Shown here: one piece after another, positions 1 to 32,168 of the stretch
Layout of the letters: every line of letters starts with the position of its first letter
Position numbering within the stretch: the first letter of the stretch is position 1
IMG/VR virus record: IMGVR_UViG_3300025646_000192
Location: 1-32,168 of that record
From: a virus
Reading direction: 5' to 3' (one strand)
Length of the DNA: 32,168 nucleotides
Notes under the pieces: generated by a model
Told to the model about the DNA's origin: nothing
The model's input: the letters and a program-made list of their open reading frames with translations, nothing else
Database searches by the model: none
Program-made: the position numbers and the translations under genes

Positions 1-1266
1 AAGCTAGATGTTTCTGATGTTGGAGGTAGTGGATACGCCACTATCTTTGATACAGGTGCTAATGGTGACAACTATTACACAGCAGGGACAAGTGGCGTTC
101 AGATTTTCCGAAATGGCTCTTCTGAAAGAATGCGTATCGACTCATCAGGTAATGTTGGTATAGGCGGAACACCTACTACATATCCGTTAGAAGTCTTTGA
201 TACAAATGGAAATGGAATTGCATATAAAGATACAACCAATTCTGTTACTAATTTTGTAGGAGCATATAACTCTGTCGGTATTTCAGGAACACTAACAAAC
301 CATCCTTACGCTTTATGGACAAACAACACAGAACGCATGAGGATAGACACTTCAGGCAGAGTTGGTATAGGTACGCAGGCTCCCGATGAAACCTTACACA
401 TAGAGAGAAACACAGTTGCAGGTGGCACTAATTATATATTCATGAGAAAAACAGATCAGGGTGCTAGTCAAGGTATTTTTATTGGAATGGCTGCAAATAG
501 TAATGATTTACAAATTTATAATGCAGCTAATAATAATATACTTTTTAAAAACCAAATTCCAGAAGCAGAACGCATGAGGATAGATAATTCTGGTAATGTT
601 GGTATTGGAGTAACCTCTCCTCAAACACCATTACAAATTGCAGGTGGTACAGATAATGCAAATGTGCAAGATTATATTACACTTAGCAGAACAGGTTATC
701 CAACAGCAAACTTTAGACAAGTTATCGCTTCTAGTTCAGGTTCAGCTGCTGCACAATGTAGTATTGTTTTTAAAACAAGTGATGGTACAAACGCTCCTGC
801 AACAGCAGTAACTATAGATGGCAATAAAGCCATGACTATTGTTGGTGCATTGTCTAAAGGTTCAGGTTCATTTAGAATTGACCATCCTCTAGAATCTAAA
901 AAAGATACACACCAATTAGTTCATTCATTTATTGAAGGACCACAAGCAGATTTAATATATAGAGGCAAAGTAGATTTAGTAGATGGCTCTGCAACAGTTA
1001 ATATTGATGCTGTAGCAGGTATGACCGAAGGAACTTTTGTAGCTCTTAACAGAGAAGTACAATGTTTTACCTCAAACGAATCAGATTGGGATGCTGTTAA
1101 AGGCAGCGTTTCAGGAAACATTCTCACCATTGAATGTCAAAATACATCATCAACTGCAACAGTATCTTGGTTGGTAATTGGCGAAAGACAAGACCAACAC
1201 ATGATTGATACACAATGGACTGATGATAATGGTAAAGTAATAGTAGAACCGCTTAAAGGAGAATAA
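1..1266 (+). CDS. Tail fibre, C-terminal part (5' end missing)
   Basis: The frame is open from base 1, so the gene begins outside the window; the first in-frame ATG (130) lies inside a repeat and is not a real start. Three copies of a motif of the form ERMRID(S/T/N)SG(N/R)VGIG occur at 124, 331 and 568, spaced by about 70 residues, each followed by a P-rich turn and a short beta-strand (LEV, LHI, LQI). This is a trimeric beta-rich shaft pattern common in marine phage fibres. The last 130 residues (HQLVHSFIEGP... to the ...TQWTDDNG... end) look like the conserved C-terminal cap of such fibres, presumably the receptor-facing or folding domain. No serine-peptidase (S74) chaperone motif is visible. 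The same motif series ends the gene at 28457-32168, so both are almost certainly one gene. Confidence 0.9.
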   Translation, partial: KLDVSDVGGSGYATIFDTGANGDNYYTAGTSGVQIFRNGSSERMRIDSSGNVGIGGTPTTYPLEVFDTNGNGIAYKDTTNSVTNFVGAYNSVGISGTLTNHPYALWTNNTERMRIDTSGRVGIGTQAPDETLHIERNTVAGGTNYIFMRKTDQGASQGIFIGMAANSNDLQIYNAANNNILFKNQIPEAERMRIDNSGNVGIGVTSPQTPLQIAGGTDNANVQDYITLSRTGYPTANFRQVIASSSGSAAAQCSIVFKTSDGTNAPATAVTIDGNKAMTIVGALSKGSGSFRIDHPLESKKDTHQLVHSFIEGPQADLIYRGKVDLVDGSATVNIDAVAGMTEGTFVALNREVQCFTSNESDWDAVKGSVSGNILTIECQNTSSTATVSWLVIGERQDQHMIDTQWTDDNGKVIVEPLKGE

Positions 1267-7204: not shown

Positions 7205-7774
7205 ATGAGTGAAGATTTTTTCAGCAATGAAAGCAGCTCTGAGGGCGGTTCTTTAAGATTCTTAAAGTATCTGGTCAAAGAGAAAATGTGGATGGTAGGA
7301 GAAGATTCTGTTGATCTTTCTTACGTTCAAGTTGATGTAGAAACTATGAAAACAGGTATCGGTAGATACTCAGGCGGTTATGAATTTGAGTGGTCACCTG
7401 TATTTGGTTCTAAGTTATACAAAGACGGTTGGTCTGATGCTGTTAGTGTTTGGCTAATGATTCATGGTGAAGATAAACCAGTATTGTTAGAGACAATGGC
7501 AGGACATCAAGTGAGAGCATTCAAGAGCATGTATGAGCAGATCAGAAATGATTTTAGGAATAACCTTCCCAATCTACCTGTCTTCTCTTATAAAGGCTCA
7601 GAGACGTTCAAAACCAAAAGCGGTTATGACAGTGCATCACACACATTTAAGCTAGAAGGCTACAAACCAAGAAAAGACGGTTTTGTTGTACCAGAATGGT
7701 TTAAAGAAGAAGCAGCAGTTGATGCTGAGGTAACGAAGACAGAGGAACTTAAATCAGAAGACATTCCATTCTGA
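7205..7774 (+). CDS. Putative single-stranded-DNA-binding protein with SSB-like DIPF tip
   Basis: A 189-residue protein with AGGAG 6 bases upstream of the ATG. The middle (about residues 20-125) is beta-rich, with WSPVFGSKLYKDGWSDAVSV in a strand-turn pattern of an OB-like fold; I do not recognise the domain for sure. From about 155 the tail is disordered and acidic (KEEAAVDAEVTKTEELKSED) and ends exactly in DIPF. In bacterial SSB the last residues (DDDIPF) recruit repair and replication proteins, so the same tip here is strong circumstantial evidence. Position between the resolvase and the primase-helicase supports a DNA-binding replication role. It ends one base into the next ATG (TGATG). 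Confidence 0.65.
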   Translation: MSEDFFSNESSSEGGSLRFLKYLVKEKMWMVGEDSVDLSYVQVDVETMKTGIGRYSGGYEFEWSPVFGSKLYKDGWSDAVSVWLMIHGEDKPVLLETMAGHQVRAFKSMYEQIRNDFRNNLPNLPVFSYKGSETFKTKSGYDSASHTFKLEGYKPRKDGFVVPEWFKEEAAVDAEVTKTEELKSEDIPF

Positions 7775-9699
7775 TGACTAACGAGGACTGGGCATCAATA
7801 GCTAGACCTGTTGCCTTAGAAGTATTAGGCGAGCCTACATCTGAATCATCTTCTGAGATGAGGTGGAATAAAAAGGGCAGCATGTGCTTGAATAAGGACA
7901 CAGGTCAGTTCTATGATTTTGAAAATCGTGAAGGTGGCGGTACTCATTGGTTTCTAAATAAGTTTGACGTAGACGTGAAAGAAACGTTAGATAGATTTGG
8001 TTTTAGTGATGTGGGAGAAAATTTAGGCACTACTTATTTTTTCCCTTCTCAAAAGGTGTCTAAACCTTCCGCATCACTATCCTCAGAAGAGCTGAGAAAG
8101 CTCTGGACTGAAGCGGTAGTTAAAATCAAGTATGCAGACAATTTTATTGTTCTCAGATTCCCTGAGGGACATAAAAGAAGTTATCAAAAATATTGTCCAT
8201 TTAGTAAACAAGAGAATGATCAATGGCTCATGAAGAGACCATCTGGGCAATTGCCTTTATATTTAACACCTAACAGAGATGCGACACTACCTGTCGTATT
8301 GGTCGAAGGTGAGAAAGCAGCAATAGCTGCAGAAAAGATATATGAAGGGCAAGTAGCTTGTCATCATGGCGGTGTTAGCGGATGGAGCAAAACAGATTGG
8401 TCACCGTTGTTTGGTAGAGATGTATTTATTTTTCCAGATAATGATGATGCAGGTTTTGGATTTGCTAACGATATTGGTACTTATCTAGAGACACATAAGT
8501 GTAATGTTTGGAAAGCTAAACCACCTGTTGAATTAAATGAGAAAGAAGATCTGCATGAAGCATTAGAAAAAGGCATTTTTAGCAGTTCTGATGTGTTTGT
8601 GAATTATGTCAAAAGCAATCCATTACAAAGACCTAAAGGAACTTTCTATTTAGAACGTGCTGATAAGCTAATGTCAGAAGTAGATCATCCTGAATGGTTA
8701 ATAAAGAATGTGGTTGAGAGATCAAGTCTCTTAGGCATATTTGGTAAACCTAAAGATGGTAAATCTTTTGTGGCTATCGCAATGGCAGCATCTATTGCTA
8801 AAGGCTCTAACTATTACGGTTATGAGACAACTCAAGCACCAGTAGTTCTGTTAGCAGGTGAGGGTCTCAGAGGTGTTAAGCGTAGACTTGCTGTGTATTC
8901 GCAAGAAATGCATGATCTAAGCGGTTGTCCTTTGTTCTTATCTAACAGAGGAACAAGAGTTCTGGATGATGATGAGTTTGAGAAACTAAAGCAAGAACTG
9001 GATTTGATTGAAGCAAAACAAGGCTCAATCGGATGTATTATTTTCGATACCTTAAACAGAAACTACGGCAGTGGCTCAGAGAACTCCACAGAGGACATGA
9101 CATTGTTTATCAGTAGGTTAGATAGTCTTATTCATAAATACAACGCTGCGGTGATCGTAGTGCATCATACAGGACATAATAACTTTGGCAGACAAAGAGG
9201 GTCATCTGTTCTTGGTGCATCTATGGACTATGAATTTAAGGTCACGAGAGAAGATAGCGGTGGTGATATGTTTGTAACTGTTGAGCAGACCCTTAATAAA
9301 GATGGTATGGGCATGGCTACTATGGACTTTAAGTTTGTAGAAGCTCAGATAAATGGGTTTGACGGATTAACATCTGGATACTTAGAACTTACGGAAGATA
9401 AACCTGAAATTAAGAAGTCTATGAATGCAGCTCATGCAATGATAGATAAAGCACTTACTAATCTTGCGACACTAAAGGTCGTAGCAGATGGTGGTGCTTC
9501 AGAGGATTACTGGTTCAAACCAAGTGATCTAACAGGCAAGGTCAAGAAGGTTAGAGGTGAAGGAATTATGTCTGATGGCAATATTAGGACTTATTTAAGC
9601 AAAATGAAGGAGTCTGATGATATATGTCATGACCCTAAAACTGACACTTATCAATCTATTCAATACAAAAGAAAGGTCGATTTTGATGAAATTAACTAA
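7774..9699 (+). CDS. Bifunctional primase-helicase (Toprim + RecA-like helicase)
   Basis: A 641-residue protein. The N-terminal 60 residues carry C38 and C141-type positions but no full zinc ribbon. A Toprim domain follows: VEGEKAA (Glu178/Glu180) and FPDNDDAG (Asp222/224/225). A RepA/RecA-like ATPase occupies about 300-520: Walker A GKPKDGKS at 324-331, Walker B CIIFDT ending at Asp425, and VVHHTGH at 462-468. The C-terminal 100 residues look like a winged-helix region (SDLTGKVKKVRGEG...DGNIRTYLSKM). It would prime and unwind phage DNA with the host polymerase, as no phage polymerase is seen. The iteron array starts 7 bases after its stop, as expected if it or the next gene binds an origin. 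Most similar layout: RepA-like primase-helicases of marine siphophages. Confidence 0.85.
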   Translation: MTNEDWASIARPVALEVLGEPTSESSSEMRWNKKGSMCLNKDTGQFYDFENREGGGTHWFLNKFDVDVKETLDRFGFSDVGENLGTTYFFPSQKVSKPSASLSSEELRKLWTEAVVKIKYADNFIVLRFPEGHKRSYQKYCPFSKQENDQWLMKRPSGQLPLYLTPNRDATLPVVLVEGEKAAIAAEKIYEGQVACHHGGVSGWSKTDWSPLFGRDVFIFPDNDDAGFGFANDIGTYLETHKCNVWKAKPPVELNEKEDLHEALEKGIFSSSDVFVNYVKSNPLQRPKGTFYLERADKLMSEVDHPEWLIKNVVERSSLLGIFGKPKDGKSFVAIAMAASIAKGSNYYGYETTQAPVVLLAGEGLRGVKRRLAVYSQEMHDLSGCPLFLSNRGTRVLDDDEFEKLKQELDLIEAKQGSIGCIIFDTLNRNYGSGSENSTEDMTLFISRLDSLIHKYNAAVIVVHHTGHNNFGRQRGSSVLGASMDYEFKVTREDSGGDMFVTVEQTLNKDGMGMATMDFKFVEAQINGFDGLTSGYLELTEDKPEIKKSMNAAHAMIDKALTNLATLKVVADGGASEDYWFKPSDLTGKVKKVRGEGIMSDGNIRTYLSKMKESDDICHDPKTDTYQSIQYKRKVDFDEIN

Positions 9700-9705
9700 T
9701 AATTT

Positions 9706-9834
9706 ACTGCATAAAACTGCATATAAACTGCATAAAACTGCATATAAATTATCAATTTTTCCGCATATTTCTGCATATATACCCTTAGGGTATATGCAGT
9801 ATGCGGTAAATAATGGGCAGTAAACTTTATGCGG
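9706..9834 (+). repeat. Iteron array with palindrome: candidate replication origin/operator
   Basis: Nine copies of the heptamer (C)(T/C)GCATA lie in 129 bp. Six are direct, at 9707, 9717, 9728, 9738, 9761 and 9771, spaced 10-11 bp (one helical turn). Three are inverted, at 9793, 9800 and 9828. The first four form two perfect tandem 21-bp units (9706-9726 and 9727-9747). Around 9771-9799 a near-palindrome has arms ending TATACCC and GGGTATA around TTA. The last heptamer covers the ATG of the gene at 9829. This is the iteron-plus-hairpin look of a replication origin, or of an operator for the downstream gene; the neighbouring primase-helicase fits. Confidence 0.75.
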
Positions 9835-10359
9835 AAGAAGAATACAATATTAGAAAAGAAAGAATTTAGTCCTCATGTTCTGAGACTGATAAAAGAGTAC
9901 AAACAACAGGAGATTAATCTTCTCAATCTATGGGGAAGTGAAGCAAGAGTCCTATCGCTTGTGTCTAACGAATTACGTCTTAAATTTAAAAAGGCACGTG
10001 ATTTATACGGAGATGCATATCACTCAAAAGACGATGCCAAGATGCTTGAAATGATCAATATGATGAAACGTGCTTTTGACGTTTTGATTAAAGATCTAAG
10101 AGATCAGGGCTATCGAGAAGTAGAAGCTGATATCAGATGCTTTGATTGGGATGGTGATCTCTGGTATGTGACAGATATGGATTATCAATTACCAAGAGCA
10201 AGAGCAACAACTGGAGACCCTAATGCAAATTACATTAGCATTCAGGAACTATTGCGAGCTGTACCAAAAGAGATGATGGACATGAGACTTCTGTTAGCTA
10301 AACAATTTGAAGGTAGTAGCTTTCAGTATGTGAAGAAAGTAAAAAGCAATGATAGTTAG
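9829..10359 (+). CDS. Unknown 176-aa protein behind the iteron array
   Basis: The ATG lies inside the last iteron (TATGCGG). There is no clear ribosome site; GCAG at about 9817 is weak. The protein is basic at its N-terminus (MRKKNTILEKKEF) and helical through residue 95, then has EVEADIRCFDWDGDLWYVTDMDYQ, an acidic beta stretch with several aspartates that could bind metal. The C-terminus is helical (IQELLRAVPKEMMDMRLLLAKQF). No family recognised. An origin- or operator-binding protein that regulates itself would suit its site, but this is inference from position alone. Confidence 0.6.
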   Translation: MRKKNTILEKKEFSPHVLRLIKEYKQQEINLLNLWGSEARVLSLVSNELRLKFKKARDLYGDAYHSKDDAKMLEMINMMKRAFDVLIKDLRDQGYREVEADIRCFDWDGDLWYVTDMDYQLPRARATTGDPNANYISIQELLRAVPKEMMDMRLLLAKQFEGSSFQYVKKVKSNDS

Positions 10360-12109: not shown

Positions 12110-12634
12110 ATGGCTACACAGAGAGAAGTTGCTGAACATTTAGACTTATCAGTTAAAAGAGTCTCAGAACTCATTAGAGACGGTATTTTGCCCTCTAAAA
12201 TGGGTAAAAGTCCGCTAAATATGGATGTTTGCAGGATTGCTTACATTTCTTACCTTAGAAAACTGGGTGGATACCATAAAAGATCTGGTACAGGCGATAT
12301 TGCAGAAGAGAAGACCAAACTTACTGCAGCTCAAGCAAGAAAGGCAGAATTAGAAGTAGAGCAGTTAGAAGGAAATCTTATTCCTGCTCAATTGGTACAA
12401 GATACATGGATTGAATATGTATCTAACGCTAGAGCAAAGTTAATAGCTTTACCCACAAGAATTGCACATCAAGTAATCTCTGTGGATAACTATGCTGAAG
12501 CAGAACAAGTCATAAAGGAGAGAGTTCACGAAGCATTGGATGAACTAGCAAACAATGGAATACCTAAGAAATATAGAAAAGGTGATACAGGAGACGAACC
12601 AGATATGGGCAGCTCCACCGAATCTCAAGATTAG
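12110..12634 (+). CDS. Terminase small subunit (Nu1-like)
   Basis: A 174-residue protein. Residues 3-25 (TQREVAEHLDLSVKRVSELI) form the N-terminal winged helix-turn-helix of Nu1-type small terminases, which binds cos/pac DNA. This is followed by LNMDVCRIAYISYLRKLGG, a long helical middle with KTKLTAAQARKAELEVEQLEG (oligomerisation) and an acidic C-terminal tail that should contact TerL. It begins the packaging/head block. Its 3' end overlaps the TerL frame by 80 bases. A weak ribosome site suggests modest expression. Confidence 0.85.
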   Translation: MATQREVAEHLDLSVKRVSELIRDGILPSKMGKSPLNMDVCRIAYISYLRKLGGYHKRSGTGDIAEEKTKLTAAQARKAELEVEQLEGNLIPAQLVQDTWIEYVSNARAKLIALPTRIAHQVISVDNYAEAEQVIKERVHEALDELANNGIPKKYRKGDTGDEPDMGSSTESQD

Positions 12635-28456: not shown

Positions 28457-31400
28457 ATGGCAACTCACGATTATAATATAGCAAATCAGACTGGTGCTAA
28501 TTTTAGAGCAGACTTAAATAATGCTCTATCAGCAATACTTTCTAACAATGCATCAGCTACAGAGCCAACAACTACTACTGCTTACATGCTTTGGGTGGAT
28601 ACAACTAATAATCTACTCAAAATGCGAAACAGTGCTGATAATGCATGGATTACTTTACCAGTATCAATAACTACCTCAAACACTGTAGATATTGATGGTG
28701 GCACAGTTAATACCATTACTTCTCTTTCTTTTAGTTCTGGTGAAACAGTTACAACAATATTAGATGAAGACGATTTATCTTCTGATTCTGCTTCTGCATT
28801 AGCTACACAACAATCAATTAAAGCGTATGTAGATAGTCAAGTTACAGCTCAAGATCTGGACTTTCAAGGCGACACAGGTGGAGCTTTATCTATAGACTTA
28901 GATTCTGAAACTTTTACTATTGCAGGTGGCAATGGTATAGATACTAGCGGTGCTTTAAATACATTAACTATTGCTATTGATAGCTCAGTTGTAACTCTTA
29001 CTGATACACAGACACTAACAAATAAAACTATAGATGCAGATAGCAATACTATTTCTAACTTAGAAGTAGATAACTTAAAATCAGGAGTTCTGGACACAGA
29101 TCTCACATCTGTTTCTGCTTCAGACGATACTCTAGCTTCTTCTAAAGCAATTAAAACTTATGTTGATGCACAAGTAACAGCTCAAGACTTAGACCTCACA
29201 GATGGCATTACAAGCATTTCTATAGACTTAGATTCTGAAACACTTTCAGTTCTTGGCGGTACAGGTGTTACCTCTACTGCTTCAGGTAATGGAGTTACTT
29301 TAGCTATTGGTCAAGATGTTGGCATAACTGCTGATGTTACCTTTAATACAGTTTCAGCAGATTTGACTGGTGATGTTACTGGTACAGTTTCAAGCATAGC
29401 CAATCATTCAACCTCAGATCTTTCTGAGGGTACAAACCTCTACTATACAACTGCAAGATTTGATTCTGCTTTTAGCGGTAAATCCACCTCAGACTTAACT
29501 GAAGGAACTAATTTATATTTCACAGACGAAAGAGTTGATGACAGAGTTAATAGTCTTTTAGTTGCAGGCAGCAATGTCACACTTACTTACGATGATGTTT
29601 CTAATACTTTAACTATTGCAGCTACAGAAGATAATTTATCCAACAACGATACAGACGATTTAGCTGAAGGCAGCACTAATCTTTATTACACAGATGCAAG
29701 AGCAAGAGCAGCTATTTCTGCTTCAGGCGATTTATCTTATAACTCCACCACAGGAGTAATATCATTTACAGAAAGAACTGATGCAGAGGTTAGGGGTTTA
29801 GTATCTGCTTCAGGTGATCTTTCTTACAATTCAACTACAGGCGTATTTAGCTTTACAGAAAGAACTGATGCAGAGGTTAGGGGTTTAATCTCAGGTGGTA
29901 CAGGAGTTACTTATAACAACACCACTGGTGTTATTTCTATTGGTCAAGCAGTAGGAACTTCCGACAATGTAACCTTTGGTGATGTCATAGTTTCAGGAGA
30001 TCTTACTGTTTCAGGAACTACTACTACAGTTAATACTGAAACTATTAATCTTGCAGACAACATCATTCTATTTAACTCTAACGCTACAGGCACACCTACT
30101 GAAAATGCAGGTATAGAAATTGAAAGAGGAGATGCAACTAATAAAACTCTTCTTTGGAACGAAACAGATGATAAATGGACTGTTGGCTCAGAAACTTTTG
30201 TTGCAGGCACTTTTGAAGGTGCATTAACTGGTAATGTTACAGGTACAGTTTCTAGTCTTGCTAATCATGACACCGATGATCTTTCTCAAGGTTCAACTAA
30301 TTTATATTATGCAGATAGCTTAGTAGATTCTCATCTATCAGGCGGTACTGGTGTCACTTACTCAAGTGGTACTATTTCTATAGGACAATCAGTAGGTACG
30401 ACAGATGATGTCACATTCAATAGCGTAACAGTTACAGATGAAGTAATAGGTGATATTGATGGTGCAATTCAAACACCTATTCGCAATACTACAGGAAGCA
30501 CCATCTACAAAGGACAAGCAGTTTATGTTACAGGTTTATCAGGTAATACACCTACAGTAGCTTTAGCAAAAGCAAATAGTGCATCAACCATGCCTGCGGT
30601 TGGTATAGCAAGAGCCGATATTAATAATAATGCAACTGGACAAATGACTGTTCTAGGTACACTAGATGGTATTGATACTTCAGGTTCAAATAACATAGAA
30701 ACTGGAGTGACATTAAGCGTCAATGATGTCTTATATATTAGTGCCACAGAAGCAGGTAATGTTACAAATACTCCACCAACAGGCGAAAGCAATCTTATTC
30801 AAAACTTAGGTAGGGTAGTTAGAGTTAGCCCTAACACTAATATGACATTTAGTGTACAGGGTGCAGGAAGAACTAATGCAACACCAAACCTAAACTCAGG
30901 CAAGATCTTCTATGGCAATGGCTCAAATCAATCTGTAGCTACTACCCTAGATACAAGCATAGTTCCTGAGAATACCAACCTTTATTACACTGATGCTAGA
31001 GCAAGATCAGCAATTAGTGTTTCAGGTAACGCTCTTTCTTATGATTCAGGAACAGGGGTTATCACTTCTAATTATGAAGAAAGCCCTACTTTTACAGGTA
31101 CAGTAACTGCTGCTGGTTTGACTGTTGATGGGGCTGGAACATTTCAAGGCTCTTCAACGCAAGTCGATCTTATCGAAACTGATGTAGTCGGAAATAATAC
31201 ACGATTGCGTCAAACGGTTGGGGATTTCTTCATCCAGACTGTAGATGATGCTGGAACAAGCCCTGTTTCTCGTTTCAACCTTGACCACGCCACAGGAGAC
31301 ATCTCTTTCTATGACGACACAGGCACAACTCAAGCATTATTTTGGGATGCAAGTGCTGAGAGATTGGGAATTGGAACGACTAGTCCTGCTTCAGAAATTC

Positions 31401-32168
31401 ATGTAGTTGATGCAGTAGCAAGTGCAGGTATAAGATTAGAATCTTCAGATACAGGAAATAGTTTTATTGCATTTGATGACCAATCTGCATCCAATCAATC
31501 AAGAATATACTACAACCATTCAACAGATTCTCTGCAATTTACTGTTAATGGTGATTCAGAAAAACTTCGCATAGACTCATCAGGACGCGTTGGTATTGGT
31601 ACGACTTCGCCTAGTGAGAAGCTAGTAATACAAGAAGGCAATGTTGCAATTAAAAGTACTACTATATCGCAAGAAACTCCTTTTTACTTTATGCGTGATG
31701 ATAGTGGACAAACGGCAGATTATGTAGCCAGTATTGGAATGCAAGCGGCTTCTTCAAGTGATTGGCGAGGTGTTATTACATTTAATGCAAAATCAGGGTC
31801 AGCCTACAACAATAACACAATTGCAGAACGCATGAGAATAGATTCATCAGGCAACGTTGGTATTGGTACGAGTAGTCCTACACAAAAATTAGATATATCG
31901 GGCGGTCACCTTAGGCTGGACGATGCTCGGAGAATTAGGTTTGGCGGTGGAACAGCAGCTATCGAAGGTAGTGGCTCGTCTAACATCTTGAGCCTTATTA
32001 CAAACAACACAGAAAGAGTGCGTATCGACTCATCAGGAAATGTTGGTATAGGCACTACAAGTCCTGCTTCTACATTGCAGATATATACTGATGTTAATGG
32101 AGTATCAAATGTTTTAGATGTAACAAACCAAGCATTATCATCTTCTGCTGGTGCTAGTGCTGTAATAC
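28457..32168 (+). CDS. Tail fibre, N-terminal part (3' end missing)
   Basis: ATG 28457 follows GGAAGAGG. The frame stays open to the end of the window (1237 codons plus one base). It starts MATHDYNIANQTGANFRADL and ...SAILSNNASATEPTTTTAYM LW, the virion-attachment start of many marine phage fibres. Then come repeats of DL(S/T/A)EGTNLYYTDARAR type, LDSET(F/L)(T/S)(I/V)LGG blocks, NLADNIILFNSNATG with ...ERGDATNKTLLWNETDDKW, and near the end the RIDSSG(N/R)VGIGT series (31562, 31826, 32012). The same motif continues at the left end of the window, which is the C-terminal part. The total protein would exceed 1650 residues. Confidence 0.9.
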   Translation, partial: MATHDYNIANQTGANFRADLNNALSAILSNNASATEPTTTTAYMLWVDTTNNLLKMRNSADNAWITLPVSITTSNTVDIDGGTVNTITSLSFSSGETVTTILDEDDLSSDSASALATQQSIKAYVDSQVTAQDLDFQGDTGGALSIDLDSETFTIAGGNGIDTSGALNTLTIAIDSSVVTLTDTQTLTNKTIDADSNTISNLEVDNLKSGVLDTDLTSVSASDDTLASSKAIKTYVDAQVTAQDLDLTDGITSISIDLDSETLSVLGGTGVTSTASGNGVTLAIGQDVGITADVTFNTVSADLTGDVTGTVSSIANHSTSDLSEGTNLYYTTARFDSAFSGKSTSDLTEGTNLYFTDERVDDRVNSLLVAGSNVTLTYDDVSNTLTIAATEDNLSNNDTDDLAEGSTNLYYTDARARAAISASGDLSYNSTTGVISFTERTDAEVRGLVSASGDLSYNSTTGVFSFTERTDAEVRGLISGGTGVTYNNTTGVISIGQAVGTSDNVTFGDVIVSGDLTVSGTTTTVNTETINLADNIILFNSNATGTPTENAGIEIERGDATNKTLLWNETDDKWTVGSETFVAGTFEGALTGNVTGTVSSLANHDTDDLSQGSTNLYYADSLVDSHLSGGTGVTYSSGTISIGQSVGTTDDVTFNSVTVTDEVIGDIDGAIQTPIRNTTGSTIYKGQAVYVTGLSGNTPTVALAKANSASTMPAVGIARADINNNATGQMTVLGTLDGIDTSGSNNIETGVTLSVNDVLYISATEAGNVTNTPPTGESNLIQNLGRVVRVSPNTNMTFSVQGAGRTNATPNLNSGKIFYGNGSNQSVATTLDTSIVPENTNLYYTDARARSAISVSGNALSYDSGTGVITSNYEESPTFTGTVTAAGLTVDGAGTFQGSSTQVDLIETDVVGNNTRLRQTVGDFFIQTVDDAGTSPVSRFNLDHATGDISFYDDTGTTQALFWDASAERLGIGTTSPASEIHVVDAVASAGIRLESSDTGNSFIAFDDQSASNQSRIYYNHSTDSLQFTVNGDSEKLRIDSSGRVGIGTTSPSEKLVIQEGNVAIKSTTISQETPFYFMRDDSGQTADYVASIGMQAASSSDWRGVITFNAKSGSAYNNNTIAERMRIDSSGNVGIGTSSPTQKLDISGGHLRLDDARRIRFGGGTAAIEGSGSSNILSLITNNTERVRIDSSGNVGIGTTSPASTLQIYTDVNGVSNVLDVTNQALSSSAGASAVI
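29717..29890 (+). repeat. 87-bp tandem duplication in the fibre gene
   Basis: Two 29-codon units (29717-29803, 29804-29890) encode SASGDLSYNSTTGV(I/F)SFTE plus RTDAEVRGL. Their last 36 bases (29765-29800 and 29852-29887) are identical, while the first parts differ at synonymous sites. Confidence 0.85.

Follow-up and report, generated by a model that had tools for sequence, protein, structure and literature searches.

Iteron origins are already known in phages and in their satellites (lambda O, P1, P4 and the SaPI satellites), and finding one in a phage would therefore be no novelty on its own. In lambda, an iteron origin (ori-lambda) lies beside replication genes; however, lambda uses a separate O initiator, carries its iterons inside gene O and recruits host DnaB, unlike the module described here. 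The helicases SaPI Rep (S. aureus pathogenicity islands) and SCCmec Cch2 are AAA+ enzymes (SF3/MCM/D5-like), and PLE RepA of Vibrio cholerae satellites is a RepA_N initiator with an N-terminal DNA-binding domain and no fused helicase or primase. SaPI Rep uses its own C-terminal domain to read iterons directly downstream of the rep gene, and binding of two hexamers has been proposed (PMC7581432). In the P4 alpha protein it is a winged helix that binds the origin repeats, and RSF1010 oriV (RepA, RepB', RepC) has iterons and palindromes near the priming site (PMC4234260). In the PLE system the DNA-binding domain and the iteron word are swapped together and a cognate pair is needed (PMC8263062).

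The locus that we compare with these systems comes from a single IMG/VR virus record of 32,168 bp, the whole of which is referred to here as the window. Its replication gene encodes a RepA-like primase-helicase (PH; 7774-9699, plus strand, 641 aa) made up of a Toprim/DUF6371-like primase part, an AAA_25 helicase domain (residues 295-469) and a C-terminal domain (CTD). PH matches Pfam AAA_25 with an E-value of 1.2e-30, matches DUF6371 and Toprim weakly, and belongs with PHROG 906/2850; a search for solved structures with PH profiles found none. The AAA_25 match and a similarity to WO gp5 ('similar to RepA of RSF1010') identify PH as an RSF1010-type RepA-like helicase, predicted to be a hexamer. 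The AAA+ (SF3/MCM/D5-like) helicase domain of the P4 alpha/SaPI Rep family was not found in it and, because the helicase class differs (AAA_25, PHROG 906/2850), PH stands outside that protein family.

SaPI Rep/ori and SCCmec Cch2 have iterons 3' of the helicase gene, as is the case here, but the window PH matches the AAA_25/RepA type, is fused to a primase module and occurs in tailed phages, and the arrays here add a shared CCCTTTAGGG-type palindrome. The likeness to P4 alpha and its ori is that primase, helicase and (as proposed here) origin binding reside in one protein; in contrast to P4 alpha, PH is of a different helicase class, the word varies by lineage and CRP-type PHs seem to carry another primase module (PHROG 906). 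RSF1010 shares the helicase type with PH, but there a separate RepC reads the iterons whereas here the reader appears to be fused to the helicase. As with PLE RepA, domain and word change together, the difference being that PH is a helicase and primase with the CTD as its putative reader.

Nine YYGCATA heptamers, six direct and three inverted, fill positions 9707-9834 of the window. The repeats had been described in an earlier note on this DNA, and the repeat features that it lists were all confirmed, from the 10-11-10 bp steps and the pair of identical 21-bp units to the palindrome and the last heptamer with an ATG inside it. Direct copies start at 9707, 9717, 9728, 9738, 9761 and 9771, and inverted copies at 9793, 9800 and 9828. 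The first four, at steps of 10-11-10 bp, occupy the two 21-bp units on the plus strand, one at 9706-9726 (heptamers 9707-9713 and 9717-9723) and the other at 9727-9747 (heptamers 9728-9734 and 9738-9744). Between this phased block and the dyad the sequence contains an A+T-rich linker (9745-9760) that may be a melting site. The next two direct iterons, CCGCATA (9761-9767) and CTGCATA (9771-9777), both on the plus strand, point as a pair into a central palindrome, TATACCCTTAGGGTATA (9778-9794), which is enclosed by a longer dyad, CTGCATATA...TATATGCAG, at 9771-9799. On the minus strand are the inverted iterons TATGCAG (9793-9799), TATGCGG (9800-9806) and a second TATGCGG (9828-9834), the last of which contains the start codon (ATG at 9829) of the next gene, encoding a 176-aa protein. 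Where these 129 bp have nine heptamers, the maximum over 200 dinucleotide shuffles of the entire window was three, and no 6-mer cluster in the window is denser than the array. The hairpin of 9768-9806 has a z-score of -4.2, and the A+T content of the array is barely higher than background (0.67 versus 0.63).

The repeats are real and conserved. All nine heptamer sites are kept in the relatives L001-L006. In L005, whose PH is 93% identical to that of the window, 0 of 42 sites in the GCATA cores have changed versus 9 of 72 outside the heptamers, while the YY positions have changed at 4 of 16 (CT to CC in the first four copies). The palindrome core ACCCTWAGGGT is common to the window, L005 and CRP-406, and ACCCTTTAGGGT is the form that the palindrome takes in CRP-811/821/823/831.

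The genes of the window run from a RecE-like nuclease through a PDDEXK/RusA-like nuclease, a 189-aa gene (sitting where relatives have the single-strand-binding gene), PH, the array and the 176-aa gene to a DUF5843-like gene, DUF3310, a minor tail gene, TerS and TerL. With local changes this order matches that of roseophages CRP-811/821/823/831, and the window TerL is 49-53% identical to those of CRP isolates (51-53% for the four just named). In TerL relationship and gene order the window goes with the CRP-822-type roseophage family. The four roseophages have been described as forming a new phage family in Microb Genom 2025 (PMC12629253), and a search of the text of that paper for 'iteron' or 'repeat' found neither. 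The primase part seems to differ between the window (Toprim/DUF6371-like; 7774-9699) and the CRP phages (DNA polymerase/primase (PHROG 906)-like; L034:4035-6260), the helicase and the array arrangement being similar. The first and last ORFs of the window (1-1266 and 28457-32168) both have RIDSSGNVGIGT-type tail-fibre repeats, both run off the ends and cannot be joined in a single frame; the record seems to be broken within a repetitive tail-fibre region rather than closed.

The earlier note had suggested looking for such an array beside the primase-helicase genes of related contigs, and the same kind of array is indeed found there, with a word that differs by lineage. In approximately 20 related phages, prophages or plasmid-borne relatives, a short-iteron array lies directly, or up to about 1.7 kb, 3' of a RepA-like PH gene, i.e., at or near the 3' end of a replicative helicase gene. 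The words include CTACAAA, GTATAAA, GCGTGACA, CGGTACA, GGAACA and others, and in most arrays a set of phased direct iterons precedes a dyad in which iterons converge on a short palindrome, often CCCTTTAGGG. In the gap after PH, CTACAAA iterons surround AACCCTTTAGGGTT in CRP-811, CRP-823 and viral contig L037, and GTATAAA iterons surround AACCCTTTAGGGTT in CRP-821, CRP-831 and viral contig L040; in CRP-406, GCTGGAAA iterons and GGGAAACCCTAAGGGTTCCC are located directly 3' of the PH stop codon. Arrays 3' of PH were also found in further viral contigs with TTGGATT (L121), CGGAA (L122), GTGTG (L123), CTACAAA (L124), GGAACA (L125) and GGTGGGG (L127), and elsewhere with GCGCCACTG (L038, a Rhodobacteraceae MAG contig), GCGTGACA (Rhizobium phages RHph_X2_25 and 16-3) and CGGTACA (Idiomarinaceae phage 1N2-2), as well as in three plasmid-borne relatives (Xanthobacter, Pseudorhodobacter and Caenibius); in L031 (GGGACA) and G020 (CCCACC) the array is a little further downstream. 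The first eight regions tested each gave P=0.0005, the limit of 2000 shuffles, and RHph_X2_25, 16-3, 1N2-2 and the three plasmid-borne relatives were at the limit of 500 shuffles. In both sets the statistic is the best 6-mer per region and per shuffle, but the consensus words were picked after inspecting each region. The annotated ORF CRP406_2 spans the iteron array of CRP-406 (L032:161-487) and its start is probably misplaced.

Nine PH-bearing phages (Salmonella SHWT1, Mycobacterium prophi79-1, Gordonia Morrissey, Caulobacter GB2A, Vibrio 1244, Vibrio 1.210, WO, Microcystis Mae-JY30 and RHph_X2_26) had nothing convincing within 320-350 bp after PH, and the module is therefore confined to part of the PH family. 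A candidate array in Mycobacterium Knocker (P=0.024) was rejected, since its repeats resemble noise from G+C-rich sequence. No match to the window PH was obtained in a scan of bacterial genomes. Rfam gave no match. Beyond relatives of the window, the remaining pattern-scan matches were discarded as tandem repeats or TTGCATA clusters. TTGCATA clusters with 10-bp steps occur in apparently unrelated contigs (L019:5939-5973, L021:1074-1108 and L023:450-484), and inspection of these three contigs revealed no obvious helicase ORF near the clusters.

What most of the arrays share is geometry. Numbered within its own region, the window array has direct iterons at 8, 18, 29, 39, 62 and 72 and inverted iterons at 94, 101 and 129, and L031 has direct iterons at 54, 66, 77, 88, 119 and 129 and inverted iterons at 150, 158 and 169, a nearly identical layout built from unrelated words. 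A second layout, common to CRP-823, CRP-831, L040 and L124, runs two direct, four inverted, two direct, palindrome, two inverted, although in L124 an exact-word search finds three of the four inverted iterons. Across the palindrome, the distance from the start of the last direct iteron to that of the first inverted iteron is 19-24 bp in these genomes. The palindromic cores of the dyads fold as hairpins (z-scores of -2.2 to -6.4), and the gaps of the CRP phages, L040 and L124 are A+T-rich compared with their surroundings (0.66-0.70 versus 0.45-0.48).

We think it probable, on the strength of these sequence comparisons, that PH reads the array, through its own CTD, as a replication origin. An origin had already been proposed in the earlier note, and this is the best-supported reading; the change in GC skew that might have accompanied it was not seen, as neither GC skew nor third-position skew marks the array. 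A different possibility is that the array is an operator or control region where binding of PH or of the 176-aa protein to the iterons represses the following operon, with no origin role. This would fit with the last iteron covering the start codon at 9829 and with the array lying, in most genomes, immediately 5' of the following gene, but we consider it unlikely. The array stays 3' of PH while the downstream genes vary (176-aa family, DUF5843-like, minor tail, NTP-PPase), a scan of 9550-9950 found no terminator and no promoter match (sigma-70-like sites being the only promoters covered), and a conserved converging dyad is unnecessary for simple repression. Autorepression by the 176-aa protein, as envisaged in the earlier note, also finds no support, since this family varies independently of the word and was not found in G040, a record with an array.

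With regard to which protein reads the word, the earlier note had named the helicase and the 176-aa protein as candidates; co-variation favours the former, through its CTD, and not the latter. The proposed reader comprises about residues 540-641 of PH (9391-9696, plus strand), and it is these C-terminal ~105 residues, rather than the downstream 176-aa family, that the word follows in relatives. In four CRP isolates the helicase core of PH is 99-100% identical and there is a sharp split into two types (A and B) at about residue 633, where the CTD starts. The A and B types of CTD are 67% identical and go with different words. CTD identity is 83-99% with the same word and 63-68% with different words (CRP types A/B); for the 176-aa family the corresponding values are 75-96% and 71-92%, and the groups are not separated. 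CRP-821 combines the N-terminal part of CRP-823 with the CTD and word of CRP-831. In a partial Mantel analysis of 17 non-redundant genomes, word correlated with CTD once the helicase core was controlled for (r=0.28, p=0.0036). Substitutions between the window and L005 are enriched in the CTD (19/97 versus 26/544, p=4e-6), and an F-x-(R/K)-(A/C) stretch near the C-terminus, noticed post hoc, is common to the genomes with ...GACA words (16-3, RHph_X2_25, Pseudorhodobacter, Xanthobacter and MW202711). L124, on the other hand, has the CRP-A word and yet a CTD nearly equidistant from the two types (53% to A, 49% to B). The co-variation supports the idea that the helicase CTD sets iteron specificity, but the CTD adjoins the array. 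Linkage therefore contributes, and recombination that transfers both together could give the appearance of functional coupling.

These comparisons also bear on the scenario in which the 176-aa family reads the iterons as a separate initiator, in the manner of lambda O or RSF1010 RepC, and PH is recruited second. The window member (9829-10359, plus strand) has a confident helical bundle in the N-terminal half of its predicted structure, the family often lies 3' of the array, and in L031 and G020 the array precedes the 176-aa family gene and does not touch PH. We nevertheless regard this scenario as quite improbable. Across a change of word the protein remains 86-92% identical (CRP A/B) or 90% identical (L121/L122, where CTDs are 32% identical over 88 residues), and the word is constant while the protein is 76% identical (CRP-831/L040, with similar CTDs) or just 28% identical (CRP-823/L124). 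Moreover, two fixed A/B differences in this family, one of them the first residue, compare with 17 in the CTD, and array-bearing G040 did not yield the family. The window protein is clearly related to those of L121 and L122 (33-34% over 157 residues); its link to the CRP family protein consists of a weak profile similarity (hhalign E 0.0016, probability 16%) and a shared position. It has no match in phage records and its model has nothing significant in PDB; in BFVD (Foldseek) the model matches solely uncharacterised phage proteins and one annotated 'terminase small subunit'. The homologue in a close relative has one in-frame stop codon (L011:5001-5528), a hint of dispensability or a sequencing error, and in L038 (532-1610) the DUF5843-like and 176-aa family genes are in swapped order relative to the window. 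That terminase annotation, and a small terminase gene ~2.3 kb downstream of the array, could point to a packaging (cos/pac-like) or a partition/incompatibility site to which TerS or a host protein binds, but this is highly improbable given that the word follows the PH CTD, that plasmid-borne relatives keep the array 3' of PH and that the window has a separate TerS (PHROG 57; 12110-12634).

Returning to an origin read by PH, our working model is that the CTD, which is probably a winged helix, would bind the heptamers, and that the four helically phased iterons would direct nucleoprotein assembly. The converging iteron pairs round the CCCTTAGGG palindrome would place helicase subunits face to face, the A+T-rich and palindromic DNA would melt, a hexameric RepA-type helicase would load and the fused primase would make the first primers. 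Binding, melting, loading, priming and origin activity are all steps that we infer. The AF2 model of the CTD, which is of low confidence (pLDDT 45), has the order helix-helix-helix-strand-strand; three helices followed by a beta hairpin is the order of a winged helix, and this fold is only weakly indicated. The CTD has no credible Pfam match and a fold search with its model gave no match in PDB.

Functionally, the module is most likely a variant of the helicase-read iteron origin, on a different helicase class. We raise only tentatively, as something with slightly less than an even chance of being correct, the further suggestion that phage origins of this kind form a class of their own, where a primase-helicase of the RepA type (RecA fold) brings its own iteron-reading CTD and assembles on a converging-iteron dyad round a conserved CCCTTTAGGG-like palindrome. 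On this view the palindrome would be a further element whose reading does not depend on the word, and phages would exchange CTD and word as one specificity cassette.

The module offers an origin that can be tested in temperate Rhizobium phage 16-3 and in a group of marine phages, the CRP-822 type, that has been reported as a new family. The natural A/B pairs, with near-identical helicase cores but different CTDs and words, are ready-made domain swaps for origin recognition by an initiator-helicase. The module would also supply replication-specificity types, which could help to predict whether co-infecting phages interfere with one another and be of use for small alphaproteobacterial vectors.
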